DNA from: Botrimarina mediterranea
Lineage (GTDB): Bacteria > Planctomycetota > Planctomycetia > Pirellulales > Lacipirellulaceae
Direction of reading: 5' to 3'
Assembly (NCBI RefSeq): GCF_007753265.1
Contig: NZ_CP036349.1
Coordinates: forward strand, 768,363-832,362
Length of the DNA: 64,000 nt
The first letter of the stretch is position 1; every line of letters starts with the position of its first letter. Under the pieces are notes generated by a model. It was given only the letters and a program-made list of their open reading frames with translations. It was not told the DNA's origin and ran no database searches. Of the stretch, positions 5,802-63,389 are shown in pieces. The position numbers were made by a program, and so were the translations under genes.

Positions 5802-6815
5802 ATGAAGATTCTCGTCACCGGCGGCGCCGGGTACATCGGTTCGCACGCGGTGCGCCGGCTGCTGGCCGCCGGGCACGATGTCTGGGTCATCGACAACCTC
5901 TACCTCGGCCACCGCGCCGCGGCGCCGGCGAGCGGGCTCCCTGCGGATCGTTTCGTCGAAGGCGACCTTGCCGACCGGCCGCTCGTTGAGAAGCTGCTGA
6001 AGGACAACGGCATCGAGTCGGTGATGCACTTCGCCGCGTACGCCTTCGTCAACGAGTCGGTCACCGATCCGGCGAAGTACTACCAGAACAACGTCGGCGG
6101 CACGCTCGCGCTGCTCGACGCGATGCGCGCGGTGGGCGTCAAGCAGATCGTCTTCTCCAGCACTTGCGCGACCTACGGCAACCCCGTGAAGGTGCCGATG
6201 CCGGAGGACCACCCGCAGGCGCCGATCAACCCGTACGGCTTTACGAAGTTGGTGATCGAGCACGCGCTGCACGACTACCACCACGCTTACGGGCTGAGCT
6301 ATGCGGCGCTGCGGTACTTCAACGCGTCGGGCGCGGCGGAGGATGGTTCGATCGGTGAGGACCACCAGCCCGAGACGCACCTGATCCCGATCATCCTGCA
6401 AGTGGCGCTGGGGCAGCGCGAGCACGTGACGATCTTCGGCACAGACTACCCGACGCCCGACGGCTCGTGCATCCGCGACTACATCCACGTCGATGACCTC
6501 GCCGACGCGCACCTGGCGGCGATCGAGAAGCTGGCCGCGTCGAAGAGCGAGCCGCTGGAGGTCCGTTGCAACCTAGGGACGGGCGTTGGTTCGAGTGTCC
6601 GCGAAGTGATCGCCGCCTGCGAGAAGGCGACCGGCAAATCGATCCAAGCGGTTGAAGGCCCGCGCCGTGAAGGGGACCCGCCGGAGCTGGTCGCCGACCC
6701 CGCCGGCGCCGAGCGTCTGCTCGGCTGGCGGGCGAAACGGCGCGACATCAACGCGACTGTTGCGTCGGCGTGGAAGTGGCACAGCGCCAATCCCAACGGC
6801 TACAGCGACAAGTGA
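5802..6815 (+). CDS. galE: UDP-glucose 4-epimerase
   Basis: A 337-residue short-chain dehydrogenase of the extended type that interconverts UDP-glucose and UDP-galactose with bound NAD. The N-terminus gives the Rossmann motif TGGAGYIGSH. HFAAYAFVNESV, the Ser of SSTCATYG, and NPYGFTK (the Y-x-x-x-K dyad has been shortened to Y-G-F-T-K) are the hallmark catalytic features. RYFNASGA and the GDGSCIRDYIHVDDLA-like stretch follow. The ATG at 5802 is chosen because it starts directly at the first beta strand; a longer frame upstream runs through the palindrome. Length is typical (about 330-340). It would supply sugars for LPS or exopolysaccharide. Confidence 0.93.
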   Translation: MKILVTGGAGYIGSHAVRRLLAAGHDVWVIDNLYLGHRAAAPASGLPADRFVEGDLADRPLVEKLLKDNGIESVMHFAAYAFVNESVTDPAKYYQNNVGGTLALLDAMRAVGVKQIVFSSTCATYGNPVKVPMPEDHPQAPINPYGFTKLVIEHALHDYHHAYGLSYAALRYFNASGAAEDGSIGEDHQPETHLIPIILQVALGQREHVTIFGTDYPTPDGSCIRDYIHVDDLADAHLAAIEKLAASKSEPLEVRCNLGTGVGSSVREVIAACEKATGKSIQAVEGPRREGDPPELVADPAGAERLLGWRAKRRDINATVASAWKWHSANPNGYSDK

Positions 6816-6860
6816 TTCCTTCATTTGCTCGCGTATAACAAGACAAGGCGCGAACTAATA

Positions 6861-7412
6861 ATGAGATCCTTCGCGTCGATTCGTGTCACTCGTGGGCTCT
6901 CCAACGCCCTGAGGTTCGGCGTTCTGTTGGTGACGCTCGTGCTGCTGACCAACACGTTCGTCGCGATTGGCTGGTTGCGGCCGGTTGTGGTGGTGGGCGA
7001 TTCGATGGCGCCGACGTTCGAGCCCGGAGAGCGGGTGCTCGTGCGGCGTTGGCGGACGCCACAGCGGTGGGACGTGGTGGTCCTGCAATCGACGACCGGC
7101 GAGGACGCGCTGCTCGTGAAACGCGTCGTCGGCATGCCTGGCGAGACGGTCACGCTGTTGGCGGGCGGCGTGTGGGCCGACAGCCGGCGCGTGCTGCCCG
7201 AGAACCAACACGCCGCCGCTAGCGTCTACTATGGAGCGTTCGGCGCGCCCGAATGGCGGTTGGGCCGTGACGAGTGGTTCGTCGCTGGCGACAACCAGCT
7301 GGAGTCGATCGACAGCCGGAATTGGGCGGCGCCGGCGGGCGTGCCGACGCGGTTGATCGTGGGGGTCGTGGCCGATTTCACTTCGAAATGGCCACCGACT
7401 CCGGTAAAATGA
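6861..7412 (+). CDS. lepB: Signal peptidase I, short form
   Basis: A 183-residue membrane serine protease of family S26. One N-terminal transmembrane helix (about 15-38) leads into VGDSMAPTF, which carries the nucleophile Ser. LLVKRVVGMPGE carries the general-base Lys, and VAGDNQLESIDSRNW is the conserved box E. These are the complete active-site boxes of type I signal peptidases that remove signal peptides at the periplasmic face. The ATG at 6861 is preferred over one 12 codons upstream because the protein begins with a basic segment before the helix. It lies 80 bp before a second, much longer signal peptidase, suggesting one unit. Confidence 0.88.
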   Translation: MRSFASIRVTRGLSNALRFGVLLVTLVLLTNTFVAIGWLRPVVVVGDSMAPTFEPGERVLVRRWRTPQRWDVVVLQSTTGEDALLVKRVVGMPGETVTLLAGGVWADSRRVLPENQHAAASVYYGAFGAPEWRLGRDEWFVAGDNQLESIDSRNWAAPAGVPTRLIVGVVADFTSKWPPTPVK

Positions 7413-54700: not shown

Positions 54701-55363
54701 ATGAGTACATCCGCCCCCGAGATGGAAAGCCTGATTGCGCAGTTCGAGAGCGAGTTCGATCGTCTGTGCAGCATAGGAACCACCACGCACGCGCCATGGA
54801 TGGAGACCGAGTCGCATGAGATCGAGTGCTGCGAGAAATGCGACCGCAATCTGTCGTGGCCGACGCCCCGCCCTGAAATGTGGGCGGCGCCCGTGCCGTG
54901 CCCGCAGTGCGATCACGTTTACTTTACGCTGGCGCGAAACCATGCCCGTGTCAGCTTGGCGGTCGACGATTCCGAAGACGTTGACGCAGCGCCGCTTGAA
55001 CCTGAACGGCACAACGCCACGCTTCCGGCCGCGAAGAAATTGTTCTCGGCCTTCCTCGGTGGCGATTACGCCGTCCAAGAGCGCCGGCAGTCGGTGCGTT
55101 ACCCCATGTCGGCGCCGGTCGTTGTTGTGCCGCTCGGGGGAGATGGCGCCCCGATCGCCGAAGCTTATAGCATGACGCTGTTGGATATTTCTTCAGGGGG
55201 GTTGGGCCTGATGAAAACCGGTGAGGCGGTCGGCGACTACCTGCTGGTGGACTTTGCCGTCGCGGGTTCGCCCGGCACACAGTGCTTCGCCAAGGTCTGC
55301 TGGCGGAAGGAATCGCACGGAATCACCAAGCTCGGCGTGAAGTTCGTGACGCCTCAAGAATAA
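54701..55363 (+). CDS. Zinc-ribbon PilZ protein, copy 1
   Basis: A 220-residue protein. A helical start (MESLIAQFESEFDRLCSIG) is followed by a zinc ribbon: CCEKCDRNLSW and later CPQCDHVYF. The C-terminal half is a PilZ domain, with the c-di-GMP-binding RQSVRYPMSAPV (R-x-x-x-R) and MTLLDISSGGLGLM (D/N-x-S-x-x-G). HGITKLGVKF closes the barrel. It should bind cyclic di-GMP in the cytoplasm. A paralogue with the same domain order lies at 59568, outside the island. Confidence 0.85.
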   Translation: MSTSAPEMESLIAQFESEFDRLCSIGTTTHAPWMETESHEIECCEKCDRNLSWPTPRPEMWAAPVPCPQCDHVYFTLARNHARVSLAVDDSEDVDAAPLEPERHNATLPAAKKLFSAFLGGDYAVQERRQSVRYPMSAPVVVVPLGGDGAPIAEAYSMTLLDISSGGLGLMKTGEAVGDYLLVDFAVAGSPGTQCFAKVCWRKESHGITKLGVKFVTPQE

Positions 55364-56192: not shown

Positions 56193-56217
56193 TGAGCCGT
56201 CGGCGCTAGCCGCGGGT
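56193..56217 (-). repeat. 25-bp palindromic repeat, copy 1
   Basis: TGAGCCGTCGGCGCTAGCCG followed by CGGGT; first of six copies between 56 and 64 kb. Confidence 0.85.
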
Positions 56218-57609: not shown

Positions 57610-57676
57610 GGCCCCGCGATACGCTTTAAGTGCGCATTCGCTGGCAATTCCGTACTACGCCAGCAATACTCCCCCA

Positions 57677-58285
57677 ATGCCGCCTAATCGGAAGACCTGC
57701 CGCCGCTACGATGTCCCAGGCGACGCCCATTTCCTGACCTTTTCATGCTACCGTCGCCTCGCCTTGCTAGATCGCGACCGTTCGCGGCAGTGGTTTATCG
57801 ACGCCGTCCGACTCGGTCAGCAAAAAGCGTTGTTCGACCTTTGGGCCTACGTCATCATGCCCGAGCATGTCCACTTGATCGTGCTGCCGCTTGGGCCGGC
57901 GAAGATGGCCTCGATCCTCACGGTGTTGAAGCAGTCCACCTCCAGCCGCGCGCTGGTGTGGCTGAAGAACAACTCGCCCGACTATCTGCCCAACTTGCTC
58001 GACCGACAGCCCAATGGAAAAGCAAGTTACCGCTTCTGGCAACGCGGTGGCGGGTACGACAGGAACCTGAGGTCGGTCCGCGACATCCACGAGAAGATCG
58101 CGTACATTCACGACAATCCAGTGCGCCGCGGCCTCGTCGCGAAGCCGTCGGACTGGCGTTGGTCGAGCGCCGCGGCGTGGAATACCGGCATTGACTTACC
58201 GCTTGGAATCGATCGCGATCGCGTGCCGACGTTGACTCTTCTCGACGATGCTGTTGACGGAGCGTGCTGGCGACGCAACTCGTGA
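57677..58285 (+). CDS. REP-associated tyrosine transposase (RAYT)
   Basis: A 202-residue Y1-type single-strand DNA transposase related to IS200/IS605 TnpA. GDAHFLTFSCYRRLALL opens the fold. VIMPEHVHLIVLP is the H-u-H metal site. IAYIHDNPVRRGLV carries the nucleophile Tyr, and the C-terminal WRWSSAAAW is typical of the RAYT branch. The ATG at 57677 begins the conserved domain. It is framed by a perfect 36-bp inverted repeat with REP shape, the expected substrate. Confidence 0.92.
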   Translation: MPPNRKTCRRYDVPGDAHFLTFSCYRRLALLDRDRSRQWFIDAVRLGQQKALFDLWAYVIMPEHVHLIVLPLGPAKMASILTVLKQSTSSRALVWLKNNSPDYLPNLLDRQPNGKASYRFWQRGGGYDRNLRSVRDIHEKIAYIHDNPVRRGLVAKPSDWRWSSAAAWNTGIDLPLGIDRDRVPTLTLLDDAVDGACWRRNS

Positions 58286-59044: not shown

Positions 59045-59567
59045 CACACTCTCGGATACGATCAACGCGTTACGAATTACGCGCATCGTAATCGAAAGGC
59101 GCCGCTCGACGAGGGGGGCCGAGTGCGAACGTCGCGGGTTCACAACAGTTGGTTGGATCCCCGGGCAGGGACGAATCCGCACTTAGCCCCTCTCGTCAAA
59201 CGGCGCCCGAGAGCGTGACTTGAGGTGCTGTTTACCTTATCGAGCTTACTGGGACCGGACTTCCGTTTAGGGAAATAGAATTCCTAAAATAGTATTTGGC
59301 GGCTGGCCCTGCAGAATGCATCCTTCCCAATCTTCCTCTGCGGTCGCTGGCGCGTCTTGCCCATTCGTCGCAACCTTTCTTTTCGTGCCAACCCTGCCGT
59401 TCTGCAGACAGTGCGATTTTGGGAATTAATTTTCCAAATCCAGTAGTCTAAGACGATCTGCAAGCATCGCTTGGTTACGCAAGCCAAGTCAGAGGGTCGT
59501 AAGGCCGTGAGGGGCTACGCTCACGGCTGCGTAGCTTGGCATTCCGCACTGCGAGGGGTTGGAAATC
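59045..59567. other. Gene-free stretch between LuxR and PilZ genes
   Basis: About 520 bases (or 380 if the longest LuxR start is used). I see no repeat, terminator or convincing short gene; a small minus-strand frame at 59284-59487 lacks a ribosome site. Confidence 0.4.
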
Positions 59568-60260
59568 GTGCATGACGACATGAGCGCACTGCTAGCTAGC
59601 TGGGACAAGGAGATCGACTTTCTATGTGGAGTCGGTCCTACCACGGACCCCCGACCTGAATTGACACCCACCTGCATGCTGAGTGCGTGTCTAACCTGCC
59701 ATTGCGACCTTTCTGAGTTGCCAGCCCCCAAAGGAGGCGAATGGGCCAGCGATACGTCGTGTCCCGGGTGCGGACGTTGGTACTTCGTGATGGGTCGACC
59801 CCAACCTTCTTCTTTGGATTGCCACGCAGGAAGTGGCTCCGAAGCCGATCGGGAGCCTAGCGGTTCGAAGAAGAACTCCCTCCGCAACTTCGGTCGGGAA
59901 GTATTGGAGGAGCTACTCGGACCTGCGTGCGTCAAGAGAGAGCGTCGCGAGTGGGCTCGCTATCCGATGTCTGCGCCCGTCGTTGGAGTTCCCCTGGACG
60001 CCGACGGCCGACCCATTTGTGAAGCTATCGCACTGACACTGCTGAACATCTCTGAAGGCGGCCTCAGTGCTATGGCGCGTCAAGCCATCCCAGGAAATGC
60101 GATCGTCATTGACTTTGCATCTGCAGGTTGTCCGAGCTTCCAGAAAATCGGTCGTATCTGCTGGTGTGAAACGGCCCACGGCATTACGAAGTTTGGATGC
60201 GAGTTCAGGGACCCCAGTTCCCTAACCGAAACGCGAACCGGGGTCGATTCGACTCCATAA
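59568..60260 (+). CDS. Zinc-ribbon PilZ protein, copy 2
   Basis: A 230-residue paralogue of the island protein at 54701. GTG at 59568 is chosen because GAGGGG lies nine bases upstream; ATG at 59580 is the alternative. The helical start SALLASWDKEIDFLCGVG, the zinc ribbon (CLTCHCDLSE, then CPGCGRWYF) and the PilZ domain (RREWARYPMSAPVVGV; LLNISEGGLSAM; HGITKFGCEF) appear in the same order. It should bind cyclic di-GMP. A GGDEF-EAL protein is encoded 1.8 kb away. Confidence 0.85.
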   Translation: MHDDMSALLASWDKEIDFLCGVGPTTDPRPELTPTCMLSACLTCHCDLSELPAPKGGEWASDTSCPGCGRWYFVMGRPQPSSLDCHAGSGSEADREPSGSKKNSLRNFGREVLEELLGPACVKRERREWARYPMSAPVVGVPLDADGRPICEAIALTLLNISEGGLSAMARQAIPGNAIVIDFASAGCPSFQKIGRICWCETAHGITKFGCEFRDPSSLTETRTGVDSTP

Positions 60261-61579: not shown

Positions 61580-62029
61580 TTAGGCCCGCGTGGTCGCTAG
61601 TGTCGGGGCGAGCTCTTCTACTAGCTGCTTGTCGAAGCACGCCAGTAGAAAGGCGAGCGTTTGATCCGCGCCAAATCGCTCGATTGGGAGGCCAGGCTCG
61701 TAGCCGTGGGCGGAAAGGACCTCGGGTTCGACGTCGTCGATTCCCCGTAACGCCATCCAGTCGTCGGCGAAGAGCGGCTCGCTGACGCGTTCGTCACGCC
61801 GCGTCACGATTTCGGCGTGTCGCGGGTCTCGGCTGATACGCGATAGGCAAGTCTCGACGGCGCCGCCGACGCCTTCCAGCACTTGATAGAAGTACCCGTC
61901 GAGGAATAGCAGCCCGCCCGTCAGGCCCGCTTGGCTATTGCGGTTGTACGAGACGCGGATGATGTCGAGGGCGTCGCGCATGCCGAGGCCGGCGGTCGCC
62001 TTGCTGCTATAAAGAACTCGTCGCAACAT
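61580..62029 (-). CDS. BLUF-domain blue-light sensor
   Basis: A 149-residue protein. It starts MLRRVLYSSKATAGLG, with Tyr7 and the strand typical of BLUF proteins. The FAD-binding helix follows with DIIRVSYNRNSQAGLTGGLL (conserved Asn residues). FLDGYFYQVLEGVGGAVETC carries the conserved Gln that flips its hydrogen bond on blue light. DWMALRG, near 95, ends the core (Trp and Met). It has no output domain. Its ATG lies 23 bases inside the end of the GGDEF-EAL gene, so the two are co-translated, and light control of the partner is the obvious guess. Confidence 0.9.
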   Translation of the reverse strand: MLRRVLYSSKATAGLGMRDALDIIRVSYNRNSQAGLTGGLLFLDGYFYQVLEGVGGAVETCLSRISRDPRHAEIVTRRDERVSEPLFADDWMALRGIDDVEPEVLSAHGYEPGLPIERFGADQTLAFLLACFDKQLVEELAPTLATTRA

Positions 62030-63389
62030 GGTCGGCCCTCCGAGACTGATCGTGTGCTTGTGCCAATGAAGGGTCGCCGATGAGTTCGAGCAGGGCGTCG
62101 ACCTCCAGCGGTTTGCTGAGGTAATAGCCCTGGATCTGGGTGCAGCCGGCGTCGCGCACCGCATTGAGTTCTTCGATGGTCTCGACGCCCTCGGCCGTGG
62201 TCGAGACGTCGAGGCTGACCCCGAGCGCCGCGATCATCTTCACGAGCGCTTGCCCCTCGGGATTCGCCTGCGCGCCACTGACGAACGAGCGGTCGATCTT
62301 GATCTTGTCGAACGGGAAACGCCGCAGGTAGTTGATCGACGAATAGCCGGTGCCGAAGTCGTCCAGCGCGATCGTGACGCCCTGCGAGCGGACCTCTTGG
62401 AGCATCGCCAGGGCGAGGTCGCCGTTGGAGAGCAGCACACTCTCGGTGATCTCGAGCTCGAGGCGTGAGGGCGACAGTCCGCTCTCTTGCAGCGCGGACT
62501 GCACGACGCCGACGAAGTCGCGCGACTTGAGCTGCAGTGGCGAGACGTTCACCGCGACACGGAGTGGTTCCGACCACGAGGCGGCGTCGAGACACGCGCG
62601 ATGCAGCGCCCATTGGCCGATCGCCCCGATCAGGCCGGCTTCTTCGGCGACCGGGATGAAGTCGGCCGGAGAGACACGCCCCAACTTGGGATGACGCCAG
62701 CGGATCAACGCTTCAACGGCAATGATCCGCCCCGTCTCGATCTGGAGAACGGGCTGGTAGAGCAATTGAAACTCGTCACGCACCAGCGCCCGGCGTAGGT
62801 CCTTTTCGAGCTCGCGGCGTGAGTCGATGACGGCAAGCATCGTCGGCTCGAAGTATCGCACCACATTCCCGCCGTCTCGCCGGGCGTGCTGCGCCGCGAG
62901 CTGTGAGTAGCGGGTCAGTTGAGTTGCTTCCGAGGCGTCGTATGGCGAAAGCGCGACGCCGACGCTGACGCCCAGGTGGATCACCTGCGAATCGATCAAG
63001 TAGGGCTCGGTTAACGAGCTGATGATGCGGCGGGCAAGACCGCGCGAACCGCTGGGCTGCGGCCCGCTGTATTGGAAAACGCCAAACTCGTCGCCGCTGA
63101 GCCGCCCGACTAGCTCGCCGCGGTCGGCCAGCGCCGTGAGCCGTTTCGCCACTTGGGCCAAGACCCGGTCACCGACTTCGAGACCGAATGCCTCATTGAC
63201 GGCGCGGAACGCGTTGAGTCCGAGCGTGAGCAGTCCGCACTCGGTCTCGGTCATCGAATTCGCGTGGACGAGCTCGTTGAACTCGTTGCGGTTGACGAGC
63301 CCCGTTAAAGAATCGACGCCGTGCGTCGCGCCGGAGCTAGGGATGACGCCCGACGGGGACGGAGTTATCGCAGCGAAATCTGCAGGCAT
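62007..63389 (-). CDS. GGDEF-EAL cyclic di-GMP turnover protein
   Basis: Shown from the ATG at 63389 (460 residues), since 40 further residues from an ATG at 63509 are Ser/Arg-rich and unlike a domain. GGDEF part: DSLTGLVNRNEFNELV and the signature RLSGDEFGVFQ, in which the first Gly is Ser. EAL part: AVEALIRWRHP, LELEITESVLL, ALDDFGTGYSS and DRSFVSG, with the acidic and Lys residues needed for phosphodiesterase activity present. The degenerate G suggests weak or regulatory cyclase activity. No membrane segment or sensor is in the protein itself; the overlapping BLUF gene may supply the input. Confidence 0.92.
   Translation of the reverse strand: MPADFAAITPSPSGVIPSSGATHGVDSLTGLVNRNEFNELVHANSMTETECGLLTLGLNAFRAVNEAFGLEVGDRVLAQVAKRLTALADRGELVGRLSGDEFGVFQYSGPQPSGSRGLARRIISSLTEPYLIDSQVIHLGVSVGVALSPYDASEATQLTRYSQLAAQHARRDGGNVVRYFEPTMLAVIDSRRELEKDLRRALVRDEFQLLYQPVLQIETGRIIAVEALIRWRHPKLGRVSPADFIPVAEEAGLIGAIGQWALHRACLDAASWSEPLRVAVNVSPLQLKSRDFVGVVQSALQESGLSPSRLELEITESVLLSNGDLALAMLQEVRSQGVTIALDDFGTGYSSINYLRRFPFDKIKIDRSFVSGAQANPEGQALVKMIAALGVSLDVSTTAEGVETIEELNAVRDAGCTQIQGYYLSKPLEVDALLELIGDPSLAQAHDQSRRADHVATSSL

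Follow-up and report, generated by a model that had tools for sequence, protein, structure and literature searches.

A stand-alone BLUF gene paired with a GGDEF-EAL gene in Botrimarina mediterranea: a candidate two-protein blue-light switch for c-di-GMP breakdown

Introduction

Can a short blue-light sensor control a separate cyclic di-GMP (c-di-GMP) enzyme that is encoded next to it? The planctomycete Botrimarina mediterranea raises this question, since a stand-alone BLUF gene lies directly behind a GGDEF-EAL gene, both on the - strand. The pair is part of a stretch of 64,000 nucleotides (contig NZ_CP036349.1, positions 768,363 to 832,362), which is termed the window throughout. An earlier note, made from the sequence alone, had described the two genes as a split module with a possible link to a nearby PilZ receptor gene. 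By analogy with characterised systems, we consider it probable that they form a translationally coupled photosensor-effector unit, in which the BLUF protein would bind the GGDEF-EAL phosphodiesterase and regulate it by light in trans. Three other readings are weighed below where the relevant evidence is presented.

Results

Layout of the gene pair

The coordinates of all features are collected in Table 1. The two frames overlap by 23 bp, as the earlier note had pointed out; this was confirmed on the - strand. The ATG at 62029 is likely the start codon of the BLUF gene, because Met1 is aligned in all eight relatives described below and a GGAGGG is found 6 nt upstream. The start codon of the GGDEF-EAL gene is less certain than that of BLUF, as its frame is open to 63509. 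A promoter scan yielded no sigma-70-like promoter, and a terminator scan gave one terminator-like site compared with 2.0 expected by chance, i.e. fewer than chance; scans of both kinds are uninformative in this planctomycete lineage. A foreign origin was also considered on the basis of base composition, but the GC content of 0.63-0.64 compared with 0.63 for the window gave no signal.

Table 1. Features of the BLUF/GGDEF-EAL locus and its surroundings (window coordinates)
Feature	Position	Strand	Basis or remark
Stand-alone (short) BLUF blue-light sensor, 149 aa	61580..62029	-	Pfam BLUF, AlphaFold2 model, key residues
GGDEF-EAL protein, 460 aa	62007..63389	-	Pfam EAL and GGDEF
Overlap of both reading frames, 23 bp	62007..62029	-	Frame coordinates
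Shine-Dalgarno-like GGAGGG, within the upstream GGDEF-EAL gene	62036..62041	-	Sequence read directly
EAL phosphodiesterase domain, full catalytic set	62109..62804	-	Pfam and motif reading
GGDEF domain, degenerate	62865..63317	-	Pfam and motif reading
SGDEF motif	63084-63098	-	Within the GGDEF domain
BLUF Asp90-Trp91	61757..61762	-	Residues common to all 8 EAL-paired BLUFs
PilZ protein	~59559-60260	+	23.4 bits (weak), cut-off 22.5; RxxxR and NxSxxG intact
Alcohol-dehydrogenase-like gene, between PilZ and BLUF	60432 to ~61404	-	Intervening gene

Conservation of the pairing

The BLUF search covered the window genome, 59 relatives (5 with BLUF) and 392 genomes from the phylum (32 positive); for 396 genomes of the order, the window BLUF served as the query. 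Home-made profiles for BLUF, GGDEF, EAL and PilZ were run over flanking sequence of about 6 kb wherever the contigs extended far enough. Among the sampled genomes, BLUF proteins of the window type (49-55% identity) were found only in G389, G505 and G726 (loci L081, L115 and L116), and in 3/3 the gene immediately upstream, in the same orientation, encodes a GGDEF-EAL protein. Four further cases came from scanning public genomes: Aporhodopirellula aestuarii (L135), Neorhodopirellula pilleata (L136), a metagenome-assembled genome from Pseudomonadota (L137) and Azohydromonas sediminis (L138). Each of them shows the gene order of the window pair. Hence, a same-strand GGDEF-EAL gene directly precedes BLUF in 8/8 members of this clade from Planctomycetota and Pseudomonadota, the latter being sampled through one pattern scan only. 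In the eight pairs, the intergenic distance is at most about 20 bp, or the genes overlap by 4, 8 or 23 bp; the L135 locus is situated at the end of a contig.

At about 60 other planctomycete BLUF loci, by contrast, no GGDEF or EAL gene was detected within about 6 kb, with the single exception of L057. This number counts loci, several of which come from close relatives and some of which lie on short contigs, and it includes the second BLUF gene present in each of G389 and G726. A model built from the eight BLUF sequences also separates the clade sharply, giving 218-235 bits for its members and at most 90 for every other BLUF in the phylum sample. Adjacency in 8/8 clade members compared with 1 of about 60 other loci rules out chance, and the link between BLUF and GGDEF-EAL is more than coincidental. 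Conserved adjacency, which the earlier note had named as a check, is thus found across two phyla, and together with the gene order it supports the split co-directional module proposed there. It shows functional linkage, which does not imply binding. The clade is rare, with only eight members found in a small sample, and the plasmid-borne BLUF relatives are all distant (below 60% identity).

Several other BLUF arrangements were encountered. L057 (~5998-7238), from the distant planctomycete G212, consists of a short BLUF gene and, about 33 bp behind it, a solo EAL gene; this is apparently a second split BLUF/EAL pair of independent origin outside the eight-member clade. One planctomycete genome contains a tandem pair of short BLUF genes (L046, 6745-7651). 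Within the order of the window genome, G736 encodes a 1004-aa chemoreceptor with Cache, HAMP and MCP domains and a C-terminal BLUF (L133, 2992-6006), possibly a direct blue-light input to chemotaxis. In a further planctomycete BLUF protein (L072, 451-1575), an adenylate/guanylate cyclase domain scoring 30.1 bits is found at the C-terminus; the protein resembles photoactivated adenylate cyclases.

Common descent of sensor and enzyme

In a tree of 70 BLUF sequences the eight paired proteins form one clade (support 100/98), and the EAL domains of their partners likewise form one group in the EAL tree (support 92/96). Both trees have their main forks in common: the window protein with L081 and L115, then L116 with L135 and L136, and the two proteobacterial proteins outside. 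This agreement is consistent with co-inheritance of the two genes. In three genomes of the window's genus BLUF is absent and the best GGDEF-EAL match reaches only 34%; as both BLUF and a close GGDEF-EAL relative are missing there, the pair appears to come and go together.

A linked pair could nevertheless be merely co-expressed, with BLUF acting on some other target such as a transcription regulator. Operon mates need not bind one another, and some short BLUFs, BlsA among them, have targets other than EAL proteins (PMC5955987). However, the GGDEF-EAL gene is common to 8/8 loci while no other common neighbour was identified among neighbours that were not systematically clustered, and the agreement of the BLUF and EAL trees also argues for the enzyme as the target.

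The BLUF protein and its clade-specific residues

The BLUF gene is the only one detected in the window genome by the BLUF search, and its product clearly belongs to the family (70.3 bits for Pfam BLUF, cut-off 25). Tyr7, Asn31, Gln49 and Met92 are present and, in the alignment, invariant in 8/8 paired BLUFs. Photochemistry and signalling of BLUF domains depend on the residues at these positions (e.g. PMC6695109). Judged by its residues, the window BLUF is a predicted photoreceptor domain with the photoactive Tyr/Gln, the conserved Asn and the β5 Met. An AlphaFold2 model built from 22 sequences (pLDDT 87.6) has its best structural matches in Tll0078/PixD (Z ~21 over 134 residues), and BlrP1-type structures ranked below these.

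The eight proteins differ from other BLUFs around strand β5. In 58/62 other BLUFs a Trp is located two residues before the β5 Met, whereas Asp or Glu occupies this position in 8/8 paired BLUFs. Instead, these proteins have a Trp one residue further on (8/8, compared with 0/62 other BLUFs). No gap is involved, since the spacing from Phe87 to Met92 is unchanged. Further clade-specific positions are Arg25, Asn29, Ser32, Asp44, Arg77, Tyr110, Gly113, Pro115, Phe119 and Cys131. Of these, Arg77 is located in β4 and Tyr110, Gly113, Pro115 and Phe119 lie between and in the capping helices, while Trp91 of the shifted Trp position adjoins the β5 Met. In BlrP1, the light signal reaches the EAL domain by a relay through β4, β5 and the α3/α4 capping helices (PMC3989770). 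Arg77, Trp91 and the stretch from Tyr110 to Phe119 thus fall in, or next to, elements of the BLUF model that match this relay, and these residues may touch the GGDEF-EAL partner. Their location in the EAL-signalling elements of BlrP1 adds to the evidence against a different BLUF target, which we regard as improbable.

The acidic residue at the Trp position of the whole clade could alter the photocycle. It also raises the question of whether these BLUFs have drifted away from light sensing and serve the enzyme as flavin-loading, redox or temperature sensors. We consider such a drift very improbable, because Tyr7, Asn31, Gln49 and Met92 are all retained in 8/8. In addition, the semi-conserved Trp is missing in the alignment from BlrP1 (Thr), the phosphodiesterase activity of which is light-regulated, and from a fused relative in Pantoea (Ala). 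Absence of the Trp therefore does not preclude light control. The β5 Trp is dispensable in some BLUF proteins, and the role of the β5 Trp/Met pair in signalling is still debated (PMC4630285).

More tentatively, the eight proteins may represent a distinct photosensor class adapted to act on GGDEF-EAL enzymes in trans. The β5 Trp would have shifted from the flavin-facing to the neighbouring, probably cap-facing site with an acid taking its place, the signal would leave the flavin pocket by a different route, and the cassette would have been transferred whole between planctomycetes and proteobacteria. A natural clade that combines a one-residue Trp shift with a known kind of enzyme offers a test of which side of β5 carries the signal.

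The GGDEF-EAL partner

Pfam profiles assign an EAL domain (253.7 bits) and a GGDEF domain (89.2 bits) to the partner. Only about 24 residues precede the GGDEF domain, and the protein is without a sensor domain of its own. Its closest solved structures are 5m3c, named a diguanylate cyclase, and 4rnh, a motility regulator. The catalytic set of the EAL domain is complete (Glu226, Asn281, ExxxTE, DDFGTGYSS in loop 6, Lys364, EGVE and Gln420), and the intact EAL motifs and the SGDEF motif of the earlier note were both recovered.

The GGDEF half reads LGLNAFR in place of lDlDxFK. Besides SGDEF, the metal-binding Asp is thus replaced by Gly, the second Asp by Asn and the Lys of FK by Arg, and motif reading of the domain revealed no RxxD inhibitory site. 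The earlier note had derived the degeneracy of the domain from SGDEF. The degeneracy holds up, but SGDEF is no proof of it, since this change by itself does not abolish GGDEF activity in ECA3270 and MbaA (PMC3974145; PMC8079147). Active diguanylate cyclases combine a (G/S/A)G(D/E)EF motif with the metal Asp of DxD; the window protein lacks this combination, in which SGDEF itself could be tolerated. From its motifs, the GGDEF half appears degenerate chiefly by loss of the metal-binding Asp. As the EAL set is complete and this Asp is lost, c-di-GMP breakdown is the expected output, and the protein probably destroys c-di-GMP. Of the three EAL proteins in the window genome, it alone has all catalytic residues, whereas L083 (FHA-EAL-like) and L084 (a partial EAL) look degenerate. 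HD_5-type phosphodiesterase candidates are also encoded in this genome.

The partners differ within the clade. Those of L136-L138 carry PAS_7 at the N-terminus and their GGDEF motifs are canonical; that of L116 is without PAS and likewise retains canonical DLDxFK and GGDEF. The L081, L115 and window partners have neither PAS nor the first metal Asp. On one reading, the enzyme lost its own sensor together with its ability to make c-di-GMP but retained the EAL site and the BLUF partner.

The canonical motifs of L116 and L136-L138, and the fact that SGDEF proteins can be active, would also fit a bifunctional switch, in which BLUF toggles its partner between making and breaking c-di-GMP, as NspS-MbaA does with polyamines. 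For the window protein this is unlikely, given the exchange of both Asp residues and of the FK Lys in addition to SGDEF, and the first Asp is missing in L081 and L115 as well. We assign little probability to such a switch overall, although it may apply to other members.

The PilZ gene and other surroundings

In the earlier note the PilZ gene was presented as a possible output of the module. Its presence and its distance of 1.3 kb were borne out, but the link was not. The gene is on the opposite strand, another gene intervenes, and the profile scan found no PilZ gene beside the module within the fetched flanks of the relatives examined. In G389 and G505 PilZ genes lie on other contigs, G726 has none, and relatives of the window PilZ occur in sister genomes without the module. 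The PilZ protein was thus rejected as an output partner; it is one of four in the window genome and may react to the c-di-GMP pool on which the module would act, although no evidence connects the two.

A PilZ paralogue with 36% identity is encoded 4 kb away at 54701-55363. Both paralogues are among the four PilZ genes mentioned above. In each protein, a zinc-ribbon-like part with four Cys residues precedes the PilZ domain, which is C-terminal; the genome encodes a third relative at another site.

A 24-bp repeat, CCCGCGGCTAGCGCCG[A/T]CGGCTCA, occurs at 56193, 57501, 60411, 61534, 63613 and 63949. All six copies are in the last 8 kb and none elsewhere in the window (0 expected); they lie near gene boundaries and flank the BLUF module on both sides. 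An IS200-like (Y1) transposase-like gene at 57674-58285 scored 20.1 bits, just below the cut-off. Repeat and transposase-like gene suggest a REP/RAYT-type system.

Discussion

Established for the proposed unit are the gene structure, the intact photosensor and EAL residues, the lost metal site of the diguanylate cyclase, the co-inherited adjacency and the clade-specific BLUF residues. On this basis, we propose that both genes are co-translated and that the BLUF protein would bind FAD and switch under blue light. It would dock on the GGDEF-EAL protein through its β4/β5 edge and the C-terminal helical cap. By analogy with BlrP1 and PapB, docking would change, and most likely raise, the c-di-GMP phosphodiesterase activity. 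The unit would thus be a two-protein counterpart of BlrP1. The GGDEF half would no longer make c-di-GMP and could at most mediate dimerisation or docking or provide GTP-responsive regulation. A cellular output of the unit is likewise proposed. It speaks for this mechanism that the window protein and its closest partners are without the PAS domain of L136-L138. As the latter combine PAS with canonical GGDEF motifs, inputs and outputs may have been different in the ancestral system.

Among the papers listed in our literature search on BLUF in planctomycetes, none dealt with this system. If the proposal is correct, trans control by BLUF extends from solo EAL proteins to GGDEF-EAL enzymes, and the separable sensor/enzyme pair could be useful in optogenetics.

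Comparison with known systems

Of the solved structures, those of the short BLUFs PixD and Tll0078 come closest to the window BLUF along its entire length, C-terminal cap included, at only about 29% identity. The known partner of PixD, PixE, is not known to be an EAL protein. NspS-MbaA from Vibrio cholerae resembles the window pair in that neighbouring genes encode a separate sensor and the SGDEF-containing GGDEF-EAL enzyme that it controls, but it consists of a periplasmic polyamine sensor and a membrane enzyme without any BLUF.

BlrP1 from Klebsiella pneumoniae likewise combines BLUF sensing with an EAL domain containing the catalytic residues, and in both systems the semi-conserved Trp is missing from its usual place. 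Unlike the window pair, BlrP1 is one fused chain without GGDEF, and in sequence it is only weakly similar to the window BLUF. YcgF/BluF from Escherichia coli also joins BLUF and EAL. This fused protein has a degenerate EAL domain, is not a c-di-GMP phosphodiesterase and antagonises the repressor BluR (PMC3509220). The comparison with YcgF drawn in the earlier note is to be corrected accordingly.

A precedent is PapB-PapA from Rhodopseudomonas palustris, a biochemically characterised heterotetramer of a BLUF and an EAL protein in which blue light raises c-di-GMP breakdown (PMC8846402; cited in PMC3989770). As in the window pair, which is encoded by adjacent genes, the short BLUF and the EAL protein are separate. 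The contrast with fused proteins drawn in the earlier note is correct as to the split arrangement, but splitting BLUF from EAL is an already known principle. PapA, however, is a solo EAL protein, whereas the window partner is GGDEF-EAL (PAS-GGDEF-EAL in L136-L138), and the enzyme gene of the window pair is upstream of BLUF, a comparison drawn from descriptions of PapB and PapA. With BLUF followed by a solo EAL, the L057 pair is more PapA-like than the window pair. New here are the GGDEF-EAL partner, the wide conservation of the pair as a cassette and the BLUF signature.
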